This document shows, in pieces, positions 29,384-44,437 of a stretch of 44,437 nt of DNA; the stretch's first letter is position 1; each line of letters starts with the position of its first letter. The stretch is from Oceanobacillus senegalensis (GTDB lineage: Bacteria; Bacillota; Bacilli; Bacillales; Amphibacillaceae): contig NZ_LT839648.1 of assembly GCF_900176885.1 (NCBI RefSeq), positions 3,656,001 to 3,700,437 on the forward strand, written 5' to 3'. The notes below the pieces were generated by a model. The model ran no database searches. It saw nothing but the letters and a program-made list of their open reading frames with translations, and was not told the origin of the DNA. Position numbers and translations under genes: made by a program.

Positions 29384-30064
29384 TTGAAACATTTATACTC
29401 TGGTAAGACAAAAGATGTGTACGAATTAAAAGATGGGAATTACCTATTAAAATTTAAAGATGATGTTACAGGGGAAAACGGTGTATTTGACCCAGGAGCT
29501 AATTCAGTCGGACTATCTATTGAAGGAGCAGGTAAAGCTGGGTTGAAACTAACACAATTTTTCTTTGAAAAGCTTAAGGAAAAAGAAATCCCTACGCATT
29601 ATGTAGATGCGAATATAGAACAGCAGGAAATGAAGGTTACTCCTGCAACAGTGTTTGGAGAGGGATTGGAAGTAATTTGTCGTTTCCGAGCGGTAGGAAG
29701 CTTTTTAAGACGCTATGGTAAATATGCAAAAGAAGGACAAGCACTTGATTCATTTGTTGAAGTAACATTGAAGGATGATGAGAGAAACGATCCACCTATT
29801 GGACGTGATGCTTTAGATATGCTAGGAATCCTAACGAAAGAAGAATATGAAGTCTTGGAAAACCTTACAAAGGAAATAGCTCAGGTAGTCAAAGATGAAT
29901 TAGCGAAAAAAGATATCGAGCTATATGATATTAAATTAGAATTTGGTAGAAATAAGAATAACGAGATTATCTTAATTGATGAAATCTCCGGTGGAAATAT
30001 GCGTGCGTATAAAAGTGAACAATACATTGAACCATTGGAATTAGAAAAGCTAATGTTAGATTAA
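29384..30064 (+). CDS. purC: SAICAR synthetase-like (PurC) protein, divergent
   Basis: 226 aa, slightly short. The fold is PurC-like: LYSGKTKDVYELKDG, KFKDDVTGENGVFD, RFRAVGSFLRRYGK and LYDIKLEFGRN. PurC joins aspartate to CAIR in purine synthesis. It stands alone, far from any pur operon. The usual SPDTCR segment after the DE(I/V) pair reads SGGNMR here, so substrate handling may differ. TTG start with AAAGAGGTG upstream. It is either the only PurC, relocated, or a paralogue with a changed role; the family assignment is firm, the reaction less so. Confidence 0.75.
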   Translation: MKHLYSGKTKDVYELKDGNYLLKFKDDVTGENGVFDPGANSVGLSIEGAGKAGLKLTQFFFEKLKEKEIPTHYVDANIEQQEMKVTPATVFGEGLEVICRFRAVGSFLRRYGKYAKEGQALDSFVEVTLKDDERNDPPIGRDALDMLGILTKEEYEVLENLTKEIAQVVKDELAKKDIELYDIKLEFGRNKNNEIILIDEISGGNMRAYKSEQYIEPLELEKLMLD

Positions 30065-35335: not shown

Positions 35336-36403
35336 ATGAGTAAAACATCCATTTACGGGTTAACCTTTGGACAATTAGAGGATTGGCTTGTGGAACGTGG
35401 AGAAAAACGATTTAGAGCAAATCAAGTATGGGATTGGTTATACAAAAAGCGTGTAAATCATTTTGATGAGATGAGAAACGTAAATAAAGAGACGATTGCA
35501 TTATTGGAAGATAACTTCGTCCTGCATACATTAGGTGAAGAAATTAAACAGGAATCCAAAGATGGAACGATTAAATTCCTATTTAAGCTTGAAGATGGTA
35601 ATTTAATAGAGACTGTCTTGATGCGCTTTAATTATGGTTTATCTGTCTGTGTAACGACACAGGTAGGCTGTAATATTGGCTGTTCTTTCTGTGCTAGTGG
35701 ACTTTTAAGAAAGAGCAGAGATTTAGACAGCGGTGAAATCGTTGAGCAAATTATGAATGTCCAAAAACACTTAGATAGTGTTGGCAAAGATGAACGTGTT
35801 AGCCATATCGTTGTGATGGGGATTGGTGAGCCATTAGATAACTACGAGAACCTTATGGATTTCCTTTATGTTGTAAATGATGATAAAGGTCTGAACATTG
35901 GTGCCCGACATATTACCGTGTCGACTAGTGGGCTTGCTCATAAAATTTATGATTTTGCAGATGAACCAATTAATGTGAATCTAGCTATATCTATACATGC
36001 ACCAAACAATGAGCTACGTTCAAGCATTATGAAAATAAATAAGGCATTTCCATTAGAGAAACTAATGCCATCTATAAAGTACTATTTGGAGAAGAAAAAC
36101 CGGCGTATTACGTATGAATATATCATGCTTCGGGATATCAATGATCATAAGGAAGAGGCGATACAGTTAGCTAACTTGCTTAAGGATCATCGTCACTTAG
36201 CCTATGTCAACTTAATTCCATATAATACAGTAGATGAACATATCCAATATCAGCGCAGTGAATCCTCCGCTATACAAGCATTCTTTGAAACGCTAAAAGA
36301 GCACGGGATAAATTGTGGCGTTCGTTGGGAAAATGGTGCAGACATTGATGCTGCTTGCGGACAATTAAGAAGTAAGCAAATGAAGAAAACAAAAGCCGTT
36401 TAA
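35336..36403 (+). CDS. rlmN: 23S rRNA A2503 / tRNA A37 C2-methyltransferase
   Basis: 355 aa radical-SAM enzyme. The cluster motif C112-x3-C116-x2-C119 (GCNIGCSFC), the [10 protein letters not shown] block and the resolving cysteine C341 (DIDAACGQL) are all present. It methylates C2 of A2503 in 23S rRNA. ATG 35336 follows ATGAGGGT. Monocistronic with its own terminator. The Cfr-type resistance paralogue is less likely given the length and the core-gene setting. Confidence 0.93.
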
Positions 36404-36409
36404 TACGAG

Positions 36410-36442
36410 AAAACAGCGTTCCATTTGGGCGCTGTTTTTTTG
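36410..36442 (+). terminator. rlmN terminator
   Basis: AAACAGCG-N11-CGCTGTTT stem followed by a T run. Confidence 0.88.
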
Positions 36443-36606
36443 ATTATATCTGGCATTTTCTTCTTATTGTTATATCTTTGGACAAAGGTATAGTGCTTTT
36501 CAGTAATCTTTATTTGGAGGCCGATATGGTTAACACAGTAAAAAGATAGTAGGCATAAACATTCCTTTTTAGGAAAAATTATCTATATAAAAGGAAGGAA
36601 AGGAAA

Positions 36607-38658
36607 ATGTTTATGCATGAGAAGGATCATATTAACGAGAAAAGCAAGCAAGAGCAGCTAAAATCCTTTAAGGTAGATGATTCGAAAAAGAATATGACGA
36701 CGAACCAGGGGCTTAAAGTTTCGGAGGATGAGCTATCTTTAACAGCGGGAGAACGTGGCCCGACTCTTATGGAGGACTTTCATTTTCGTGAAAAGATGAC
36801 ACATTTTGACCATGAAAGAATTCCAGAAAGAGTAGTTCATGCAAGAGGATTTGCAGCACATGGTGTGTTTGAAACATATGAATCGATGAAGCAGTATACA
36901 AAGGCAAAGTTTTTATCTGAGGCAGGAAAGAAAACGCCGGTATTTACTCGTTTTTCAACGGTAGTAGGTAATCGGGGATCCGCTGATACGGTTCGAGATG
37001 TGCGGGGTTTTGCAACAAAGTTTTTTACGGAGGAAGGAAATTACGATTTAGTTGCCAATAATATGCCTGTATTTTTCATTCAAGATGGAATGAAGTTCCC
37101 CGATGTAGTTCATGCTCTTAAACCCGAACAGCATAATGACATCCCACAGGCATCTGGAGCACACGATACGTTTTGGGACTTTGTTGCCAACAATCAAGAA
37201 TCAGCGCATCATGTTATGTGGTTGATGTCTGGCCGTGCTGTGCCTAGAAGTTATCGAATGATGGAGGGTTTTGGGGTTAATACGTTCCGATTTGTAAATG
37301 AACAAGGAGTATCCCACTTTGTTAAATTTCACTGGAAGCCAAAACTTGGTGCGCATTCTCTTGTTTGGGATGAGGCACAAAAAATAGCAGGGAAGGATCC
37401 GGATTATAATAGAAGGGATCTATATGATGCCATAGAGATGGGGAACTTCCCTGAGTGGGAATTAGGTGTACAAATCATCGAGGAAAAGGATGAGTTTGCC
37501 TTTGATTTTGATATTTTAGACCCAACAAAGATTTGGCCAGAAGAGGATGTACCAGTTAAACGGATTGGTAAGCTTACTCTCAATCAAAATGTCGATAATT
37601 TTTTTGCTGAGACGGAGCAAGTGGCCTTTCATCCAGGGCATGTTGTGCCAGGAATTGATTTTACGAATGACCCATTATTACAGGGTCGGTTATTTTCCTA
37701 TACAGATACACAATTAATCCGTCTTGGTGGTCCGAACTTCCATGAGATTCCAATTAATCGCCCCGTTGTGCAGTTTTACAATAACCAAAGGGAAGGCTAC
37801 CACCGTCAGACTATTAATAAAGGAAAGGTATCCTATCATAACAATTCTTTAGCAGGGAATACTCCGTCTCCTGTTAGCGAGGAGAAAGGTGGCTATTCAC
37901 ATTATCAGGAAAAAGTAGACGGAAAGAAAATACGTAAAAGAAGTGTAAGCTTTCAAGACCATTTCTCACAGGCAACATTGTTTTGGAATAGCATGAGTGG
38001 TCCTGAGAGACTGCATATTATTGATGCTTTTAGCTTCGAAGTAGGTAGTGTAAAGGATAAGGTGCTTAGGCAGCAAGTTGTAGATATGTTTGCGAATGTT
38101 GATATGGAACTAGCTACAGCCTTTGCTCAAAATATTGGGGCAACACCACCAAAAGGGGAGGGGACCTCTGTAACCAAAAGTTCTCCAGCTCTAAGTCAAT
38201 TGAATACGGTAAAAACAGCCAAAACGCGCAAGGTTGGGATTATATTAGATAATGGATTTGAGGATAAGAAGATAAAAGATATACTACACGGATTGAATGC
38301 AGAGGGTGTAACATACGAAATCATTAGTGAAAAACAAGGGATAATTAAAGGATTAGGTGGAGAAGAACTAATGGTTGATCATACGTTTACAACTACAGAT
38401 CCCGTGCTTTATGATGCTATCTACGTTGGTGGTGGTGCAGCATCAAGTAGGTTATTCCATAAAAAAACCACGTACTACCTAAAAGAAGCGTTTAAACATT
38501 ATAAGCCAATTGGTGCAACAGATACAGGAGTAACTTTTCTAGAAGATAACAATTATATAGGGAGTCTAGGTGTGGTAGATGGCACAAATACATCCTTTGT
38601 AAAAGACTTTGTTCAAGCTATAGCTGAACATCGTCATTGGAATAGGCAAGTGATGTAG
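36607..38658 (+). CDS. katE: large-subunit (clade 2, HPII-type) catalase
   Basis: 683 aa, the long form. The catalytic His78 is in RVVHARGFAAHG, the distal Asn in VANNMPVFFIQDG, and the heme ligand Y365 with R361 in RLFSYTDTQ. Residues from about 535 form the extra DJ-1/flavodoxin-like C-terminal domain (RKVGIILDNGFEDKKIKDIL ... LEDNNYIGSLGVVDGTN). Destroys hydrogen peroxide in the cytoplasm, often in stationary phase or spores. AAGGAAGGAAAGG lies before ATG 36607; a second ATG two codons later is possible. A decayed copy of its 3' end lies 1.3 kb downstream. Confidence 0.95.
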   Translation: MFMHEKDHINEKSKQEQLKSFKVDDSKKNMTTNQGLKVSEDELSLTAGERGPTLMEDFHFREKMTHFDHERIPERVVHARGFAAHGVFETYESMKQYTKAKFLSEAGKKTPVFTRFSTVVGNRGSADTVRDVRGFATKFFTEEGNYDLVANNMPVFFIQDGMKFPDVVHALKPEQHNDIPQASGAHDTFWDFVANNQESAHHVMWLMSGRAVPRSYRMMEGFGVNTFRFVNEQGVSHFVKFHWKPKLGAHSLVWDEAQKIAGKDPDYNRRDLYDAIEMGNFPEWELGVQIIEEKDEFAFDFDILDPTKIWPEEDVPVKRIGKLTLNQNVDNFFAETEQVAFHPGHVVPGIDFTNDPLLQGRLFSYTDTQLIRLGGPNFHEIPINRPVVQFYNNQREGYHRQTINKGKVSYHNNSLAGNTPSPVSEEKGGYSHYQEKVDGKKIRKRSVSFQDHFSQATLFWNSMSGPERLHIIDAFSFEVGSVKDKVLRQQVVDMFANVDMELATAFAQNIGATPPKGEGTSVTKSSPALSQLNTVKTAKTRKVGIILDNGFEDKKIKDILHGLNAEGVTYEIISEKQGIIKGLGGEELMVDHTFTTTDPVLYDAIYVGGGAASSRLFHKKTTYYLKEAFKHYKPIGATDTGVTFLEDNNYIGSLGVVDGTNTSFVKDFVQAIAEHRHWNRQVM

Positions 38659-38661
38659 AAT

Positions 38662-38700
38662 AAAAAGAGGGTGAGGGATCATTTCTTATCCTCTTTTTTT
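38662..38700 (+). terminator. katE terminator
   Basis: AAAAAGAGG ... CCTCTTTTTTT, with GGGAT/ATCC pairing inside. A diverged version recurs at 40021-40050. Confidence 0.8.
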
Positions 38701-38701
38701 G

Positions 38702-38870
38702 ATGTTTACAATAATGTACACGCGTGTACAAAAATGTAACGATTATGTACTTTTATGTATGCATGTATACAATGTTGTTTACATGTTGATTTTACGATGA
38801 ATACATAGGTGTAAACATGTGTACATAAAAGAATACATGTATACGTAAAAGTATACATGTATTCATATGG
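38702..38870. repeat. TGTATAC array 1 (parC-like candidate)
   Basis: Words of the type TGTATAC/TGTACAC/TGTTTAC begin at 38704, 38715, 38725, 38735, 38746, 38756, 38764 and 38776, i.e. mostly every 10-11 bp, one helical turn. Palindromic forms follow at 38809-38870 (GTACAT, ATACATGTATAC, GTATACATGTATTC). No ORF. Its layout resembles the iterated sites bound by RHH ParR proteins. It starts right after the katE terminator. Confidence 0.65.
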
Positions 38871-38891
38871 TTGGGGAGGGCCTTGTCACAT

Positions 38892-39013
38892 GATTAATCT
38901 GGCTGAAAGTCTCTTAACGAGAGGAATTTGAGAGAATTTGAGATACTAGAAGAATGATACATGCGGGCCGGGCAGCCAGTAAACTCTTGATTCGTTTATC
39001 TACCAACCAGTGT
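38892..39013 (+). repeat. dispersed structured repeat, copy 2
   Basis: Aligns with 682-791 along its whole length. The flanking stem CTGGCTG (38899-38905) / CAGCCAG (38973-38979) is perfect here. A 10-11-bp direct duplication (GAATTTGAGA twice near 38928-38945) makes it longer than copy 1. It lies 20 bp after array 1, in a decayed region. Confidence 0.7.
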
Positions 39014-39230
39014 GGGATAAAAGAACCTCAATGATTGAAGGGTACTTTATTGTATAAGGTTAACGGGAATGAAGAGAGGAACATCTGTATCGTAATATTT
39101 GGTATTAGCTTTTTTTGTAGGTTGAAAGCTTGCATTTCCCAAATGTACAATAACACCTCTTAATGAAAAATATGGTTTTAGGGAATTGGCAAAAGGAGTT
39201 TAAAAATATTGTCTTTTATGCAAAGTGAAG

Positions 39231-39935
39231 ATGAGTAGAAAACAGATAAATGGCCGCTATTGAAATAATTGATGCATATTCAGAAAGCGGCTTGTATTGT
39301 TGATCATATTTCTAAAATAGAGATCTTAATCACTCAAAGGTAGCACATTACAGACTACCAGGCTTATATATATGAAATCGCATCGTGAACTACATCATTC
39401 ATGCTTAGGGCGATGCAAGATATTCGGATGAAAGATTTGTAGAACGGAGAAGAATAATAAAGATATAGAAGAGGTTTAATTAATCCTTTTTAGTGGAGTT
39501 TTGCAACTAGAAAATGTAATTGAAAGTTAATATAACTCTGCTGGAGAGCAATTAACAGCAATAGGTGAAACTTGCATCGGATGGTAGTACACACCATTCG
39601 ATGTATTAGCACACTTGAATTTGTTTCACACAAATAACATGCATCAACTTGCAATGTTAGTGAAAATAAAATCAGTGACGTTTAATATGAAAAGGATTCA
39701 ATGGTAGATAGGTAATATGGATGAAATAATTGGTATGATTTTATCGGAGGTTAAGGAGCAGTATTACTCACACCTCGAAAATGGAGGGAAAACGAATCCA
39801 TTTAGACGGGGAGGATGAAAGCAGGGTGATTGTTATGGATCTTAATTCTCATATGCATGTTTCTCATTTTAAATATGTGAGTCAGTTCGTGTTAACAAAA
39901 TGGAAGGAATGCAGGGACGGAATGACTTTCCTAAC
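39231..39935 (+). pseudogene. decayed gene remnant(s) of unknown family
   Basis: Coding-like frames broken by stops. From 39480 to 39818 one frame reads SGVLQLENVIES, stop, GEQLTAIGETCIGW, stop, YTPFDVLAHLNLFHTNNMHQ then LAMLVK, stop, and NMDEIIGMILSEVKEQYYSH. A +1 shift near 39800 then continues LDGEDESRVIVMDLNSHMHV up to VLTKWKE. Weaker fragments (QKAACIVDHISKIEILITQR) lie upstream from about 39250. The stops are mostly TAG/TAA point changes. I do not recognise the family. Confidence 0.6.
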
Positions 39936-40012
39936 GTTTCAATAGTAAAGGGGTTAGGTGTAGTTGTTATTGTACAGGAATTTGTTCAAGCTAAAGCAGA
40001 ACTTATGTAGGG
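39936..40012 (+). pseudogene. decayed copy of the katE 3' end
   Basis: One frame reads KGLGVVVIVQEFVQAKAELM then stop, matching the katE end (GSLGVV ... FVKDFVQAIAEH ... M, stop). The DNA match TTGTTCAAGCTAAAGCAGAA differs from katE by only two bases. GGAATGACTTTCCTA just upstream corresponds to katE GGAGTAACTTTTCTA, out of frame with the rest. The following terminator and array also match those after katE. Confidence 0.7.
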
Positions 40013-40017
40013 GTAAC

Positions 40018-40051
40018 TGAGAGTGAGGGGATGATTATCCTACTTTTTTTA
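40018..40051 (+). terminator. decayed duplicate of the katE terminator
   Basis: GAGTGAGGGGATGATTATCC then TACTTTTTTT, aligning with the katE terminator. The stem AGGGGAT-gatt-ATCCT is still possible. Confidence 0.55.
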
Positions 40052-40074
40052 ATAGGAACGAGAATGATTTTTAA

Positions 40075-40200
40075 TGTATACAATAAAGTTTACATGTATA
40101 CAAAATTGTTGTAGTTGTATACGGTAAATGAATACATGTATATTAATATGTATACATATGGATTTTAAGGTGTTTTCATAAATGTATGCAAGTATACATA
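40075..40200. repeat. TGTATAC array 2 (parC-like candidate)
   Basis: TGTATAC-type words at 40075, 40086, 40095, 40107, 40116, 40129, 40137, 40149, 40183 and 40191, again about 10-12 bp apart over the first half. Blocks match array 1: 40076-40110 to 38704-38739, and 40131-40161 to 38832-38870 (AATACATGTATA ... GTATACAT ... ATGG). It lies 140 bp upstream of the actin-like gene. Confidence 0.65.
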
Positions 40201-40218
40201 AAAGAATACTACTAAAGT

Positions 40219-40248
40219 TTGATTGTAATATGATGCAAAAACTATTAT
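40219..40248 (+). promoter_or_regulatory. candidate promoter of the ParM-like operon
   Basis: TTGATT (40219-40224), 18-bp spacer, TATTAT (40243-40248). It lies just downstream of array 2, so a protein bound to the array could repress it, as ParR does at parC. Confidence 0.45.
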
Positions 40249-40341
40249 TCTAGTATAGGGAACACTTTTAATAGAATGAAAGCAGATGGAAAAATCATCC
40301 TAATAGAATGAAGGTTTATTTAAGAGAGGAGTTTTTTATAC

Positions 40342-41517
40342 ATGACAATATCAAGAGTGGCGGCCGTTGATGTAGGAAATGATGCTTTGAAAGGAATGTT
40401 CGGAAAGCTAGAAAATGAATTATACATTCCTAATATTATTGCACCAGATTTAGAAGACCGTCCTGTTATCGGTATAGAGGAATTAGATAAAAAGGAAGTG
40501 CTAGATAATATACATATTCGTATCCATTCACCAGCACTTGAAGAAAATAATGTAATTTATCGCGTTGGTAACTTAGCAGCAAAAACAACTAATTCTCAGG
40601 AACTAGATCCTGGTAGCAGCAAATCTGAAGAGGATCAAACATTAGTTATGTTATTTGCTGCATTGGCGTTAGATGCAGTTGATACATCAGATTTTAGACA
40701 AAGAAATGATGTAATTGAAGCGAATTATACACTTGGTACAGGTTTACCACTTCGTGAGGTGAAGGAAGGTAAGGATGTTGGTTATCGCTCTCAATTACTT
40801 GGTTCTGTACACCAAGTAGAATTTCTCGTTACCCCTAAACATCAAGGGAAAAAGGTTAACTTGAAATTTGATCAAGTAAAAGTATATCCAGAAGGCTTTG
40901 CTGCATATGTAAATCTCGTTATGGATAATGATTTAAAAGTAATTAATAAAGAATTAATGGATAAACAAATTCTGATTCAAGATATTGGTGGTTTATCTAC
41001 AGATATTGCCGTAATTAAAAATCGTAATGTAGATGATGATAAGGCACAAGGATTTAACTTAGGGGTATCTGAGTCTTTAGAACAAATCCGTGAAGAAATA
41101 CGATCTAAACATGGAGTGGAACTAGATAGCCGCCGTGATGTAGTAGATATTATTACTCGTAAAAATGACCGTAACCACATTATGGTAAAGGGTAGCAGAA
41201 CGAATGTTCATGATATTACAGATCACATCCTATTAGAGCTTGCCAAAAAGGAGTACCGCTTCTTACGTAATGTATGGGCGAAGAACTCTCAATCCGAAAT
41301 CTGCTATTTCATTGGTGGCGGATCTGCTGTCTTAAAAGATTATATTAAAGCTTTAAATAATAAATTAGATGGATTTAATATTGAGTTCTTTGAAGATGAA
41401 CAGGAAAGTATTTGGATGATGTCTAATGCATATTATAAATTAATCAACCAATTTATTGCGTCTTCAAAGAAACCGCATGAGAAAAAGGAAGAAAAACCTG
41501 CTGCTCCAGCAAAATAA
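40342..41517 (+). CDS. ParM/StbA-type actin-like ATPase
   Basis: 391 aa, actin-fold protein of the plasmid-segregation ParM/Alp kind. Phosphate-1 loop D10-VGNDALK17, phosphate-2 loop D214-IGGLSTD221 and adenosine loop G325-GG327 (CYFIGGGSAV) are present and intact. The tail is Lys/Pro/Ala-rich (KKPHEKKEEKPAAPAK). It should polymerise with ATP into filaments that push DNA bound through a ParR adaptor. GAGAGGAG lies about 10 nt before ATG 40342. The next gene encodes the likely adaptor; its ribosome binding site overlaps this stop codon. No replication or conjugation genes are nearby. Confidence 0.88.
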   Translation: MTISRVAAVDVGNDALKGMFGKLENELYIPNIIAPDLEDRPVIGIEELDKKEVLDNIHIRIHSPALEENNVIYRVGNLAAKTTNSQELDPGSSKSEEDQTLVMLFAALALDAVDTSDFRQRNDVIEANYTLGTGLPLREVKEGKDVGYRSQLLGSVHQVEFLVTPKHQGKKVNLKFDQVKVYPEGFAAYVNLVMDNDLKVINKELMDKQILIQDIGGLSTDIAVIKNRNVDDDKAQGFNLGVSESLEQIREEIRSKHGVELDSRRDVVDIITRKNDRNHIMVKGSRTNVHDITDHILLELAKKEYRFLRNVWAKNSQSEICYFIGGGSAVLKDYIKALNNKLDGFNIEFFEDEQESIWMMSNAYYKLINQFIASSKKPHEKKEEKPAAPAK

Positions 41518-41528
41518 GGTGATATGAG

Positions 41529-42113
41529 GTGAAAAAAGGTATTGAACGGGGGCAATCTATTACATTTCGGATTCCTTCCGATACACCCGATTATCTATTA
41601 AAGCAATTATCAAAATTAAAAGAGACAGAGAAAAGGAATTTTTCAAGTACCATTGCTAGTTTTGTGCTAAAAGGTGTGAATGAGACGTTTGCAAAGGAAC
41701 GTGAGGTAGTAACGATTCCACTACCAAAAAGGTTAACCAAAGAGCAAAAAAGCTGGTTAAAGCATGAACATTCAGAAGCAATGATAGGAACCATTCTGTA
41801 TCAATTGCTAAGTGACCCAATGCGTGCTACGACATTATTATCTTCTTTAAATAGTAATTCTAGTGATATAAATGAAGTTCTATCGTTTGAAGAAGCATCT
41901 GTGACGACAGAATTCGAAACAGATAGCACAAAGGAAACAGAAACAAATCGTGAAGCTGCGTTTGAACCTGAATTGGAAACCAAGAAATTAGATGAAGGTT
42001 TAGATGATGTGGATATCGACATGCTAGATGTACATGCTGAAAGTGAAGAAGCAATTGAAGAGGAGGAGGAAGACGATCCACTTGGTGACTTTTTCTCCAG
42101 TATGAATAAGTAA
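41529..42113 (+). CDS. ParR-like ribbon-helix-helix DNA-binding adaptor
   Basis: 194 aa. Residues 10-54 look like a ribbon-helix-helix unit (strand SITFRIP, helices 19-32 and 37-54). Residues 60-95 look like a second one (strand VVTIPLP, two helices). Then come a Ser/Thr/Glu linker, a very acidic stretch (160-183) and a short tail DDPLGDFFSSMNK. Known ParR proteins combine RHH DNA binding with a C-terminal peptide that binds ParM filament ends. GTG start with AAGGTGA 6 nt upstream. The ParR identity is inferred from operon position and fold, not from recognised sequence identity. Confidence 0.7.
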   Translation: MKKGIERGQSITFRIPSDTPDYLLKQLSKLKETEKRNFSSTIASFVLKGVNETFAKEREVVTIPLPKRLTKEQKSWLKHEHSEAMIGTILYQLLSDPMRATTLLSSLNSNSSDINEVLSFEEASVTTEFETDSTKETETNREAAFEPELETKKLDEGLDDVDIDMLDVHAESEEAIEEEEEDDPLGDFFSSMNK

Positions 42114-42120
42114 AAAAATG

Positions 42121-42161
42121 AAACGGCCAAAAGACAATGAATCTTTTGGGCCGTTTTTTTG
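42121..42161 (+). terminator. terminator of the ParM/ParR-like operon
   Basis: AACGGCCAAAAGA ... TCTTTTGGGCCGTT stem followed by a T run. Confidence 0.9.
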
Positions 42162-42302
42162 TATGCTAATTTTATAAAATAAATGGAACGAAAAGAAGTC
42201 GCCCATTTTACAAAAACCCTCAAAAAATAATGTTTCCATAAAACTTTTTTAACCGTGCAAAGGTATTTATATAGAAAGCAACAAAAGAAGGGGGGATACC
42301 CG

Positions 42303-42839
42303 TTGCAGGATAGAAAAACAGTTAAGCTTATTAAGAAGGTGAAAAAAGGGAATCAGCAGTCCTTTAAACAACTTTATGATTTGTATGCTGATTATTCGTT
42401 AAGAACAGCATATGGAATTACAGGGAATATAAGTGATGCAGCAGATATTGTTCAAGAGACATTTATAAAAGTGTATCGCCATATCGACTCCTATGACAGT
42501 GAAAAACCGTTTAAACCGTGGTTTTATCGTATTTTAATAAATGAGAGCAGACGTCTATTGAAAAAGAGGTCTAAAGATGCAATTAGTGTCGAATCAGAAC
42601 AAATGCTGGATTCTCTACATGGGCATGAAACGAATCAGCTGGATTTAGATAGTCTCCATGATGCTATTGAACAACTGGATGCTAAACATCGAACAATCAT
42701 CATACTAAAGTATTTGAATGGATTTAAAGAAAAGGAAATCGCTGAAATATTCGATATGAATGTAAATACGGTTAAATCAAGGTTATATCAGGCAAGGCAA
42801 CGGCTGAAGGAAATTTTAGGAGGTGGCAAGCTTGAGTAA
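42303..42839 (+). CDS. ECF-family RNA polymerase sigma factor
   Basis: 178 aa. Region 2 (FKQLYDLYADYSLRTAYGI; DAADIVQETFIKVYRHIDSY) and region 4 (YLNGFKEKEIAEIFDMNVNT then VKSRLYQARQRL) are joined by a short linker with no region 3, as in ECF factors such as SigW/M/V. TTG 42303 is chosen because GGGGGG at 42290-42295 lies about 7 nt upstream; an in-frame GTG at 42255 has no such signal. It overlaps the next gene by 8 bp, typical of a sigma/anti-sigma pair. Confidence 0.9.
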   Translation: MQDRKTVKLIKKVKKGNQQSFKQLYDLYADYSLRTAYGITGNISDAADIVQETFIKVYRHIDSYDSEKPFKPWFYRILINESRRLLKKRSKDAISVESEQMLDSLHGHETNQLDLDSLHDAIEQLDAKHRTIIILKYLNGFKEKEIAEIFDMNVNTVKSRLYQARQRLKEILGGGKLE

Positions 42840-43596
42840 ACAACCATTTGATGAAGAACTGAAAAAGCAGCTCAGGCGACAGACGAAAACAGCTGTTCAA
42901 GAAAAAGAGGCCGTATGGAATAACATTAATAATCAATTATTTTCGTCCTCGAAACAAAGGCAGAAACAAAAGCGAATACAAGGATGGATGGTTGGTGTCG
43001 GTTCAATAGCTATCGCATTCGTTTTATTTGTTGGGATATTTATAGATAGTGGGATGGAAAAAGGGCAAGCTATGTTTCAAAGCCTGAGAGAGATATTTAT
43101 GGAAGAGAAGGACGTGGAAATAGAGGTAGAAGGCCATAAAGAAGATACGAATGTTCAATTGGAAGTTAATGAGGAGCTTCGTTATATCATTTATATTGAT
43201 GAAGAAAGATATAAAATGGTTAAAGGTGAGGAAGTAGATCGTATTGAGACGATGGAGCCGTTACCTGAGAGATATCCTGAGGTCTATATGGAGATCTTTC
43301 AAGAAGCGAACACAACTACAGAGGAAGTTATGGCCCGCTTAAAACAAGATATTGAAAAAGACCCTGAAATGGAAGTAAGGGAAATAAAAAGTGTTTCAGA
43401 ACCAATTGAAGCACAGACAATACGAAGTATCGGGAAAGAACATTTCAATTGGGATACCCCGATTAATCAGTACTATGTCACAGATGAAATAGATGGTAGG
43501 GTGTTTGTGATTAAACAGGTTTATTTCCTAGAAGCAGCAGAAGGACATGGTGCCCGCTTCCACCATATGTTGAAGAGTTTTGAAGTCATAAAATAG
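42832..43596 (+). CDS. probable membrane anti-sigma factor
   Basis: 254 aa. A basic, Gln-rich cytoplasmic part (1-50), one membrane helix (about 51-72, WMVGVGSIAIAFVLFVGIF) and a Glu-rich outer domain of about 180 aa. No HxxxCxxC zinc anti-sigma motif is seen. TTG 42832 is chosen because AGGAGG at 42818-42823 lies 8 nt upstream; an in-frame GTG at 42823 overlaps that signal. Position and topology point to control of the upstream ECF sigma; the inducing signal is unknown. Confidence 0.75.
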   Translation: MSKQPFDEELKKQLRRQTKTAVQEKEAVWNNINNQLFSSSKQRQKQKRIQGWMVGVGSIAIAFVLFVGIFIDSGMEKGQAMFQSLREIFMEEKDVEIEVEGHKEDTNVQLEVNEELRYIIYIDEERYKMVKGEEVDRIETMEPLPERYPEVYMEIFQEANTTTEEVMARLKQDIEKDPEMEVREIKSVSEPIEAQTIRSIGKEHFNWDTPINQYYVTDEIDGRVFVIKQVYFLEAAEGHGARFHHMLKSFEVIK

Positions 43597-43632
43597 GTCC
43601 CCAAGAACGTTGGAGACCTTCTTTTATTTTTA
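43595..43632 (+). terminator. terminator of the sigma/anti-sigma operon
   Basis: AGGTCCCCAA-gaacg-TTGGAGACCT stem with one mismatch, then a T-rich tail. Confidence 0.85.
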
Positions 43633-43726
43633 TTCATTGAATGATAAATAATCTCTTTTTTTAAGATGTTTCTAAGTATAAGAATACGTTCGCATGTAAA
43701 ACTAGGGGGAAAGAGGAGGTCATTCA

Positions 43727-44368
43727 ATGGATTGGGATTTACTATGGAAAGCGGTCATTATTGTTATCGGTGGGACCTTTCTTCTTCGGTTTGCTGGAAG
43801 GAAATCCATCTCACAAATGACGCTTACGCAAACAGTGATTATGATTGGGATTGGTTCCTTATTAATCCAACCAATAGCTGGTGAGAATGTTTGGACTACT
43901 TTATTGGTAGGGTTATGTTTAGTATTAACGTTAATAACCATGGAGTTTGTACAAATTAAAGGGGATTTTTTGGAAAATCTAATCACAGGGAAGTCTAAGG
44001 TTCTGATAGAAAATGGACAGATACAAGAAAAGAATCTTAAAAAACTACGAATAACTGTAGATCAATTGGAAATGAATCTAAGACAACAAAGCATACAAAG
44101 GATTGAAGATGTTCAATGGGCGACATTGGAAGCAAATGGTCGAGTAGCAATAGCTTTAAAAGAGGATGCACAGCCTGTAACGAAAAAGGAATTTAAGCAG
44201 TTGACTCATCTCATGCAGCAATATTTAAACCAACTTAACGAGAATAAGGAGAAAGGGAAAGTCGAACAATTAAATAGTCCTACCATTCCAGAAGAACACC
44301 AGGAAACTCTTTTTGCAGAAATTCAACGGAAAGGCCATAAAAATAAACCGCCAAGTCGCTTACAATGA
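43727..44368 (+). CDS. DUF421 (YetF-like) membrane protein
   Basis: 213 aa. Three N-terminal membrane segments (about 6-24, 36-52 and 56-75) with RFAGRKSISQMTLTQTVIMI, the hallmark of DUF421/YetF. The cytoplasmic part reads GKSKVLIENGQIQEKNLKKL and RIEDVQWATLEANGRVAIAL. The C-terminal 50 aa are charged and low complexity. AGAGGAGGT lies before ATG 43727. YetF-type proteins are membrane proteins of uncertain role; B. subtilis paralogues are induced in spores or under stress. Confidence 0.88.
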   Translation: MDWDLLWKAVIIVIGGTFLLRFAGRKSISQMTLTQTVIMIGIGSLLIQPIAGENVWTTLLVGLCLVLTLITMEFVQIKGDFLENLITGKSKVLIENGQIQEKNLKKLRITVDQLEMNLRQQSIQRIEDVQWATLEANGRVAIALKEDAQPVTKKEFKQLTHLMQQYLNQLNENKEKGKVEQLNSPTIPEEHQETLFAEIQRKGHKNKPPSRLQ

Positions 44369-44383
44369 TTGGCGGCTTTTTTT
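44346..44383 (+). terminator. terminator of the DUF421 gene
   Basis: CCGCCAA (44349-44355) ... TTGGCGG (44369-44375) then a T run; the left arm lies inside the coding end. Confidence 0.85.
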
Positions 44384-44400
44384 AATGGTTTTTAAATAAG

Positions 44401-44433
44401 AAAAACCGCCAAAACATATGTAATGGCGGTTGG
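44401..44433 (-). terminator. terminator of a minus-strand gene beyond the window
   Basis: On the minus strand, AACCGCCA ... TGGCGGTTTTTC forms a stem with a T tail, so a convergent gene probably ends just right of the window. Confidence 0.6.
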
Positions 44434-44437
44434 GGGG

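Follow-up and report, generated by a model that had tools for sequence, protein, structure and literature searches.

In ParABS systems such as Soj/Spo0J-parS, an origin-proximal centromere and an adaptor act together with ParA, a Walker-type ATPase. The ParMRC system of pSK41 is described as having a parC of 10-bp repeats upstream of parM-parR, a ParR whose C-terminus is thought to recruit ParM, and a parR gene that is autoregulated through parC (PMC4911067). Chromosome-encoded ParMs in cParMR cassettes, some of them conserved within genera, were reported by Ali et al. in 2025 (J Biol Chem, PMC12270681), among them Dh-cParM1 of Desulfitobacterium, Cb-cParM of Clostridium and Bt-cParM1/2 of Bacillus tropicus. 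According to that paper, two of the cParMs form filaments, Cb-cParR binds a palindromic repeat adjoining its operon (a chromosomal parC), no conserved cparC was identified in Clostridium strains, as a legend states, and Bt-cParM is conserved on several Bacillus chromosomes. Here we consider a parM-parR gene pair with repeat arrays upstream in a 44,437-nucleotide stretch (the window; bases 3656001-3700437 of contig C4) of the Oceanobacillus senegalensis genome. Judged from sequence, this is a genuine, intact and selected chromosomal ParMRC-like locus, and it is probable, if far from certain, that it makes up a complete partition system of type II (actin-type) on the chromosome, with an origin-proximal centromere of its own on which it acts. 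The concern attached to the original prediction, that the region could really belong to a plasmid, does not hold, because this 4.28-Mb contig (4,275,839 bp) makes up 99% of the 4,300,368-bp genome and the locus is therefore chromosomal.

The product of the first gene matches the Pfam family Alp7A_like_C with 126.6 bits (cut-off 22), and MreB-like_C and ALP_N are matched as well. The presence of all three actin-fold nucleotide loops, which had been read from the letters only, is borne out by these profiles and by an alignment with five plasmid ParMs, in which D10, G12 and N13, positions 214-217 and 219-221 (DIGG.STD) and the GGG at 325-327 are invariant; these correspond to the phosphate-1, phosphate-2 and adenosine loops of an actin-fold ATPase. 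When solved structures were searched with a profile that includes the five plasmid homologues (A3), the best match was ParM of the plasmid pCBH (PDB 6izr, E 3e-12), which belongs to a plasmid system, unlike the chromosomal locus, and the chromosomal Dh-cParM1 was found at E 1e-4, which denotes only distant sequence similarity. The profile of the uniform chromosomal group alone matched no solved structure at E 0.01, and the single sequence matched neither pCBH ParM nor pSK41 at that limit. The AlphaFold2 models of ParM (poor, predicted local distance difference test score, pLDDT, 43) and of ParR (weak, pLDDT 62) probably suffer from alignments that are too uniform. One parM orthologue (G157:C12:10971-12122) has two in-frame stop codons and represents either a pseudogene or sequence errors.

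In each of the 80 named loci the parR gene comes after parM, and its product is homologous to that of the gene 3' of plasmid parM (32-42% identity over 91-132 amino acids), with homologues matched in 22 plasmid records (best E 2e-18). In an alignment of 47 members, the first ~110 residues are well conserved, the linker that comes next is acidic and variable, and the C-terminal tail, which reads DPLGDFFSSMNK in the window protein, is conserved again, with L185, F188 and N193 invariant. This layout resembles, by analogy, that of ParRs with a ParM-recruiting C-terminus such as the one of pSK41 (PMC4911067). No significant match to the family was found in Pfam, NCBIfam or PHROG; weak scattered Pfam matches (best E 0.0076) and DUF4349, which was matched by 16 of the 47 members (best E 0.011), were taken as chance. 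The ribbon-helix-helix pattern was seen by eye only, and the AlphaFold2 model contains helices at 21-33 and 38-55 and no strands.

Two arrays, whose unit is the palindrome TGTNNACA, precede parM, with strict TGTNNAC(A) sites clustered at 38707-38854 (nine) and 40079-40195 (six), whereas the remainder of the window never has more than two strict sites in 200 bp, and the maximum in 30 first-order Markov windows is four. The TGTATAC arrays proposed originally are thus real, and their spacings (8, 12, 20-21, 33-34 and 41-42 bp) are near helical multiples, as had been claimed, but do not follow one fixed period. The same element recurs in relatives: in the 450 bp upstream of parM at 81 loci (our own and 80 named relatives), the median is 8 strict sites (range 0-17; 2-17 in 80 of the 81), against a background mean of 0.52 in 1,538 bins, the fullest of which has 8, and the far clusters located in the background scan include upstream arrays of other species. 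Far clusters in L052 and L079 look different from the parM arrays; the one at L079:185-248, at the edge of its locus, consists of four AGTTCACA words with exact 21-bp spacing. Across the loci, centre-to-centre distances pile up at 8, 12, 20-21 and 42 bp, and 329 site pairs lie 8-13 bp apart compared with 3 at 14-17 bp. Doublet, triplet and BLAST searches, which could miss degenerate words, revealed no array in the own genome, apart from those of this locus, that exceeds chance, and the triplet search gave three places elsewhere against six in a reversed control. A BLAST match 19 kb from dnaA (E 0.34) was rejected, as it contained no array on reading. By its sequence, the upstream array can be regarded as an iterated centromere-like element adjoining the operon.

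In at least five of the 81 loci the array has been multiplied, with the further copies located 0.9-1.9 kb upstream of parM. Within the window, the two arrays resemble one another (71% over 142 bp), which had gone unnoticed in the original prediction, and the 3' end of katE is duplicated as well (33 bp, 85%) and shares its 1373-bp offset with one of the array repeat pairs. Extra arrays upstream are also present in Oceanobacillus caeni (L042:4138-4200; 74% over 214 bp compared with the proximal array), O. rekensis (L047:4508-4610; 83% over 180 bp), Sediminibacillus (L075:4135-4273; 66% over 112 bp, the weakest case) and Neobacillus rhizophilus (L108:4150-5130), where two extra copies (74-77%) are accompanied by remains of the neighbouring gene, namely a copy with a frameshift and a relic of 48 bp. 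In the Neobacillus locus the co-copied coding DNA has decayed while the array words are still recognisable, and the window suggests the same pattern as far as its short katE relic goes. The 1.1 kb between the two arrays was considered as a decayed katE copy and rejected, since the matches end with the last 33 bp.

Orthologues of parM, defined as best matches below 1e-150, are 73-91% identical. Among 159 family genomes 73 have one (79 counting weak matches), as do 201 of the 397 genomes sampled from the order (220 counting weak matches). The group is sharply bounded: E-values leap from 5e-192 to 3e-21 in the order sample, and in a class sample of 398 genomes (E limit 1e-40) orthologues have at least 73% identity and the next matches at most 44%. 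Among 72,556 plasmid records, 82 match ParM, all of them below 60% identity (~40-43% in the 20 of these 82 matches that were listed), and phages gave two poor matches. The median ratio of nonsynonymous to synonymous substitutions (dN/dS) is 0.019 for parM and 0.081 for parR over 43 close, overlapping pairs, so that both genes are under strong purifying selection. Many of the relatives are drafts; that their loci are chromosomal is judged from long contigs and from 56 near-closed genomes.

The gene neighbours behave differently from the operon. Upstream of the array in Oceanobacillus, Virgibacillus and Lentibacillus (loci L031-L057, L079-L081, L087 and L088) lie rlmN (28 loci) or a GGDEF gene (17 loci), katE is found there in nine loci in all, two of them from other genera, and the remaining genera have different upstream neighbours. 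The operon keeps its array and changes its gene neighbours; of the conserved synteny sought in relatives, parM-parR and the upstream array are kept and the flanking genes are not. In the parM tree, five plasmid copies are set off by a long branch, and recent transfer from plasmids was rejected on that ground. Many congeners cluster, among them Halobacillus (as two groups), most Lentibacillus and Neobacillus. With 28 of 81 forks open, unsettled bootstrap values and no species tree alongside, the tree is informative on vertical descent in part only. One locus labelled Chryseobacterium sp. ISL-80 (L103) has a parM that falls among those of Bacillus sp. ISL strains, so this label looks wrong.

The position of the locus is constant. 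In all 56 orthologue-bearing genomes of the family and order samples that have at most four contigs and a listed position, dnaA could be placed, and the locus lies without exception (56 of 56) on the left arm, oriented in the direction of replication. The distance to dnaA is 37-497 kb in 55 genomes and 871 kb in one; 21 of the 56 distances are rough, because they were wrapped round the contig end with genome size rounded to 100 kb, and among the remaining 35 the median is 168 kb and the largest value 497 kb. The locus of the window is 165 kb away from dnaA. Two ParB-family genes above the cut-off, presumably spo0J and noc, lie 10-12 kb from the start of dnaA in the same genome. The system resembles ParABS by analogy, in having a putative origin-proximal centromere and an apparent adaptor, and differs from it in that the locus encodes an actin-type ATPase and the ParB-family genes are elsewhere in the genome; on a search for the ParB family, parMR does not look like a ParABS replacement.

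We infer from the layout of the locus how such a system would work. By binding the TGTNNACA array that lies upstream of parM, ParR dimers would assemble a segrosome, which would also repress the parMR operon; the C-terminal tail of ParR would capture the ends of ParM filaments, and ParM polymers would push apart or position sister copies of the locus and with them the origin regions, alongside the ParB-type system of the genome. In other words, the chromosome itself may be moved or positioned with the help of an actin-like filament. A wider version, that many Bacilli use an ancient chromosomal ParMRC actin spindle, with its own centromere near oriC, to segregate or position their origins, beside the ParB-type system and tied to spore-forming life, is offered tentatively and has, in our estimate, somewhat less than an even chance. 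Should parMR move the chromosome, chromosomes would be partitioned by actin-type spindles as well as by ParABS, and the arrival of origins at the poles of sporulating cells might become easier to understand. The group provides a strong natural test case, with selected and intact genes, a conserved centromere-like array, a constant side and vicinity of the origin in the genomes tested, and many environmental species.

Several observations weigh against partition of the chromosome by this locus. For the putative ribbon-helix-helix fold, which the original prediction gave to the second gene, profile and fold searches yielded no match. One locus (L062) has no strict site in its upstream 450 bp, where related GCA-type words are seen by eye, and the Sediminibacillus locus has only two. 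About half of the sampled order genomes are without an orthologue, so the locus is dispensable in general, and the two ParB-family genes near dnaA indicate that parMR is probably not the sole partition system. The parM tree splits Oceanobacillus, Virgibacillus, Metabacillus, Pontibacillus and Thalassobacillus. Inheritance of one ancestral site could explain the origin proximity equally well. The chromosomal task suggested originally, origin positioning or sporulation, is a candidate with partial support: it fits the left-arm position, the want of further arrays above chance in the own genome and the sporulation counts given below, and about half of the sporulation-marker genomes manage without the locus.

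SpoIVA was found in 382 of the 397 order genomes and in 155 of the 159 family genomes (153 above the cut-off). After 20 doubtful genomes were rechecked with SpoIIIAB, 18 remained without either marker, and two orthologue-bearing genomes of the family sample (G065 and G017), which are exceptions by SpoIVA, were marker-positive by SpoIIIAB. In the union of both samples (539 genomes, 17 shared; counts uncorrected for phylogeny), the orthologue is present in none of the 18 marker-negative genomes and in 264 of the 521 others. RacA/DivIVA and Soj/Spo0J bring origins to the poles in Bacillus subtilis. By analogy with these, the locus could act only at the stage before asymmetric division when the chromosome spans the cell from one pole to the other, and would then help to fix the origins at the poles or push them there. 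We regard this restriction to sporulation as doubtful. On the one hand, the zero in 18 speaks for it, as does one family of the order sample (f7), in which the orthologue occurs in 14 of 14 genomes with SpoIVA and in none of the two without. On the other hand, the 257 marker-bearing genomes without an orthologue mean that sporulation can do without it, so that any link is not a requirement; the 18 marker-negative genomes come from eight genera only, with kinship uncorrected, the orthologue is absent from marker-bearing and marker-free genomes of another family (f35) alike, and the loss of sporulation may merely accompany wider gene loss.

Compared with a sporulation-restricted role, it is slightly less likely that the proteins form an actin-like cytoskeleton that serves a different cargo or task (envelope, stress or another replicon) and that the array is a mere operator for autorepression by ParR, which we consider unlikely. 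The array does lie directly upstream of the operon, as would suit an operator, parR of pSK41 is autoregulated through parC (PMC4911067), and arrays rise above chance at the parM locus alone in the own genome. It can be argued in reply that phased sites numbering 8 in the median and as many as 17 seem excessive for simple repression, and that the further array copies 0.9-1.9 kb upstream in five of the 81 loci do not suit it either.

The nearest plasmid relatives bring in another explanation, according to which a chromosomal system stabilises, or competes with, low-copy plasmids that bear similar arrays. The ParM/StbA systems of Bacillaceae and Paenibacillus plasmids (for example pBM69 of Bacillus methanolicus) share the parM-parR order in five of five examined, with 42-43% identity in ParM and 32-42% in ParR to the window proteins. 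One of the five has four strict TGTNNAC sites just upstream, and related GCATAC/TGTATGCA words are seen by eye in others; TGTATACA sites are present in one B. subtilis plasmid. These systems differ from the present one in being plasmid-borne, in having few sites and in the long branch between the groups. The homology of the protein pairs and the TGTATACA sites thus favour a plasmid-directed role, and a part in plasmid segregation is left open for the cParMs by Ali et al. (PMC12270681). Against this, the array sits on the chromosome itself, and the ParR tail is of the ..FLNFD.. type in four of the five plasmids and unlike that of the window protein, which suggests separate partners. We therefore hold a plasmid-directed system to be quite improbable. 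A direct relation to Alp7AR of pLS20, after whose Alp7A the Pfam family is named and in which an actin-like gene is likewise followed by a small gene, was not supported: BLASTP similarity to Alp7A is insignificant (24%, E 0.07), profile A3 does not match it at E 1, the protein in the Alp7R position has no homology to the window ParR, and no TGTATAC array is seen by eye upstream of alp7A.

A captured plasmid remnant without present function, which was one of the two original suggestions, can be dismissed as having next to no probability: a plasmid-type system on a chromosome and the duplicated debris adjoining it might recall one, but the dN/dS values, the orthologues in 201 of 397 order genomes, the lack of any plasmid match at 60% identity or above (0 of 82) and a context in which no plasmid genes were recognised contradict it.

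Partition of the chromosome by parM-parR thus stays the preferred reading, and the closest precedent is the cParMR of Ali et al., which resembles the locus as a chromosomal parM-parR cassette conserved within genera; origin linkage is reported here for the present group and none appears in the sections of that paper considered here (PMC12270681). Part of our group may already be covered there, as Bt-cParM1/2 (WP_001968526.1 and WP_000025611.1). Since the type of machine was already known, what is added here is the order-wide conservation, the common array and the origin linkage. Among the matches listed in a search of mainly open-access literature, by title and start of the abstract, no other paper on the present Bacillaceae group, on its array or on its link to the origin was found.

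Table 1. Features of the parM-parR locus in the window (positions counted from the first base of the window)
Feature	Position	Strand	Remarks
katE 3' end and terminator	38597..38701	+	beside distal array
Distal centromere-like array	38702..38870	none	9 strict TGTNNAC(A) sites, centres 38707, 38719, 38727, 38768, 38780, 38814, 38822, 38842, 38854; adjoins intact katE
Inverted repeat within distal array	38831-38864		14 pairs
katE 3'-end relic preceding proximal array	39970..40060	+	33 bp at 85%; offset 1373 bp
Proximal array (parC-like)	40075..40199	none	6 strict sites, centres 40079, 40091, 40099, 40120, 40153, 40195; position kept in relatives
Possible promoter TTGATT-18-TATTAT, between proximal array and parM	40219..40248	+	weak
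parM-like gene (Alp7A-like actin ATPase)	40342..41517	+	391 amino acids
parR-like gene	41529..42113	+	194 amino acids, GTG start
Intrinsic terminator 3' of parR	42127..42157	+	stem 42127-42149, then T-rich tail

The surroundings of the operon agree with what had been read from them at the outset. The terminator is present, the neighbours are katE, rlmN, an extracytoplasmic function (ECF) sigma gene with a partner, and argGH ~20 kb off, and the gene after the ECF sigma gene belongs to no known family. The reported lack of replication, conjugation and integrase genes also held, as no such family was matched by Pfam among 39 of the 45 window open reading frames (ORFs) of at least 100 amino acids, the remaining six of which overlap a scanned ORF on the opposite strand. 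No Rfam family reached its gathering score in 36000-44437. A SAICAR synthetase (purC-like) gene lies at 29384-30064, and among the scanned ORFs it is the sole purine-pathway gene recognised. The ~1.1 kb between the arrays (38870-39969) contains no ORF of note, and its sole match among the other fetched loci is a 44-bp stretch in L003/L031, which are from one genome. Promoter-like sites are rarer in the region than chance (10 compared with a mean of 17.5 in its shuffles), and near the position of the promoter candidate a ctgattg/attgact word is seen by eye in many relatives.

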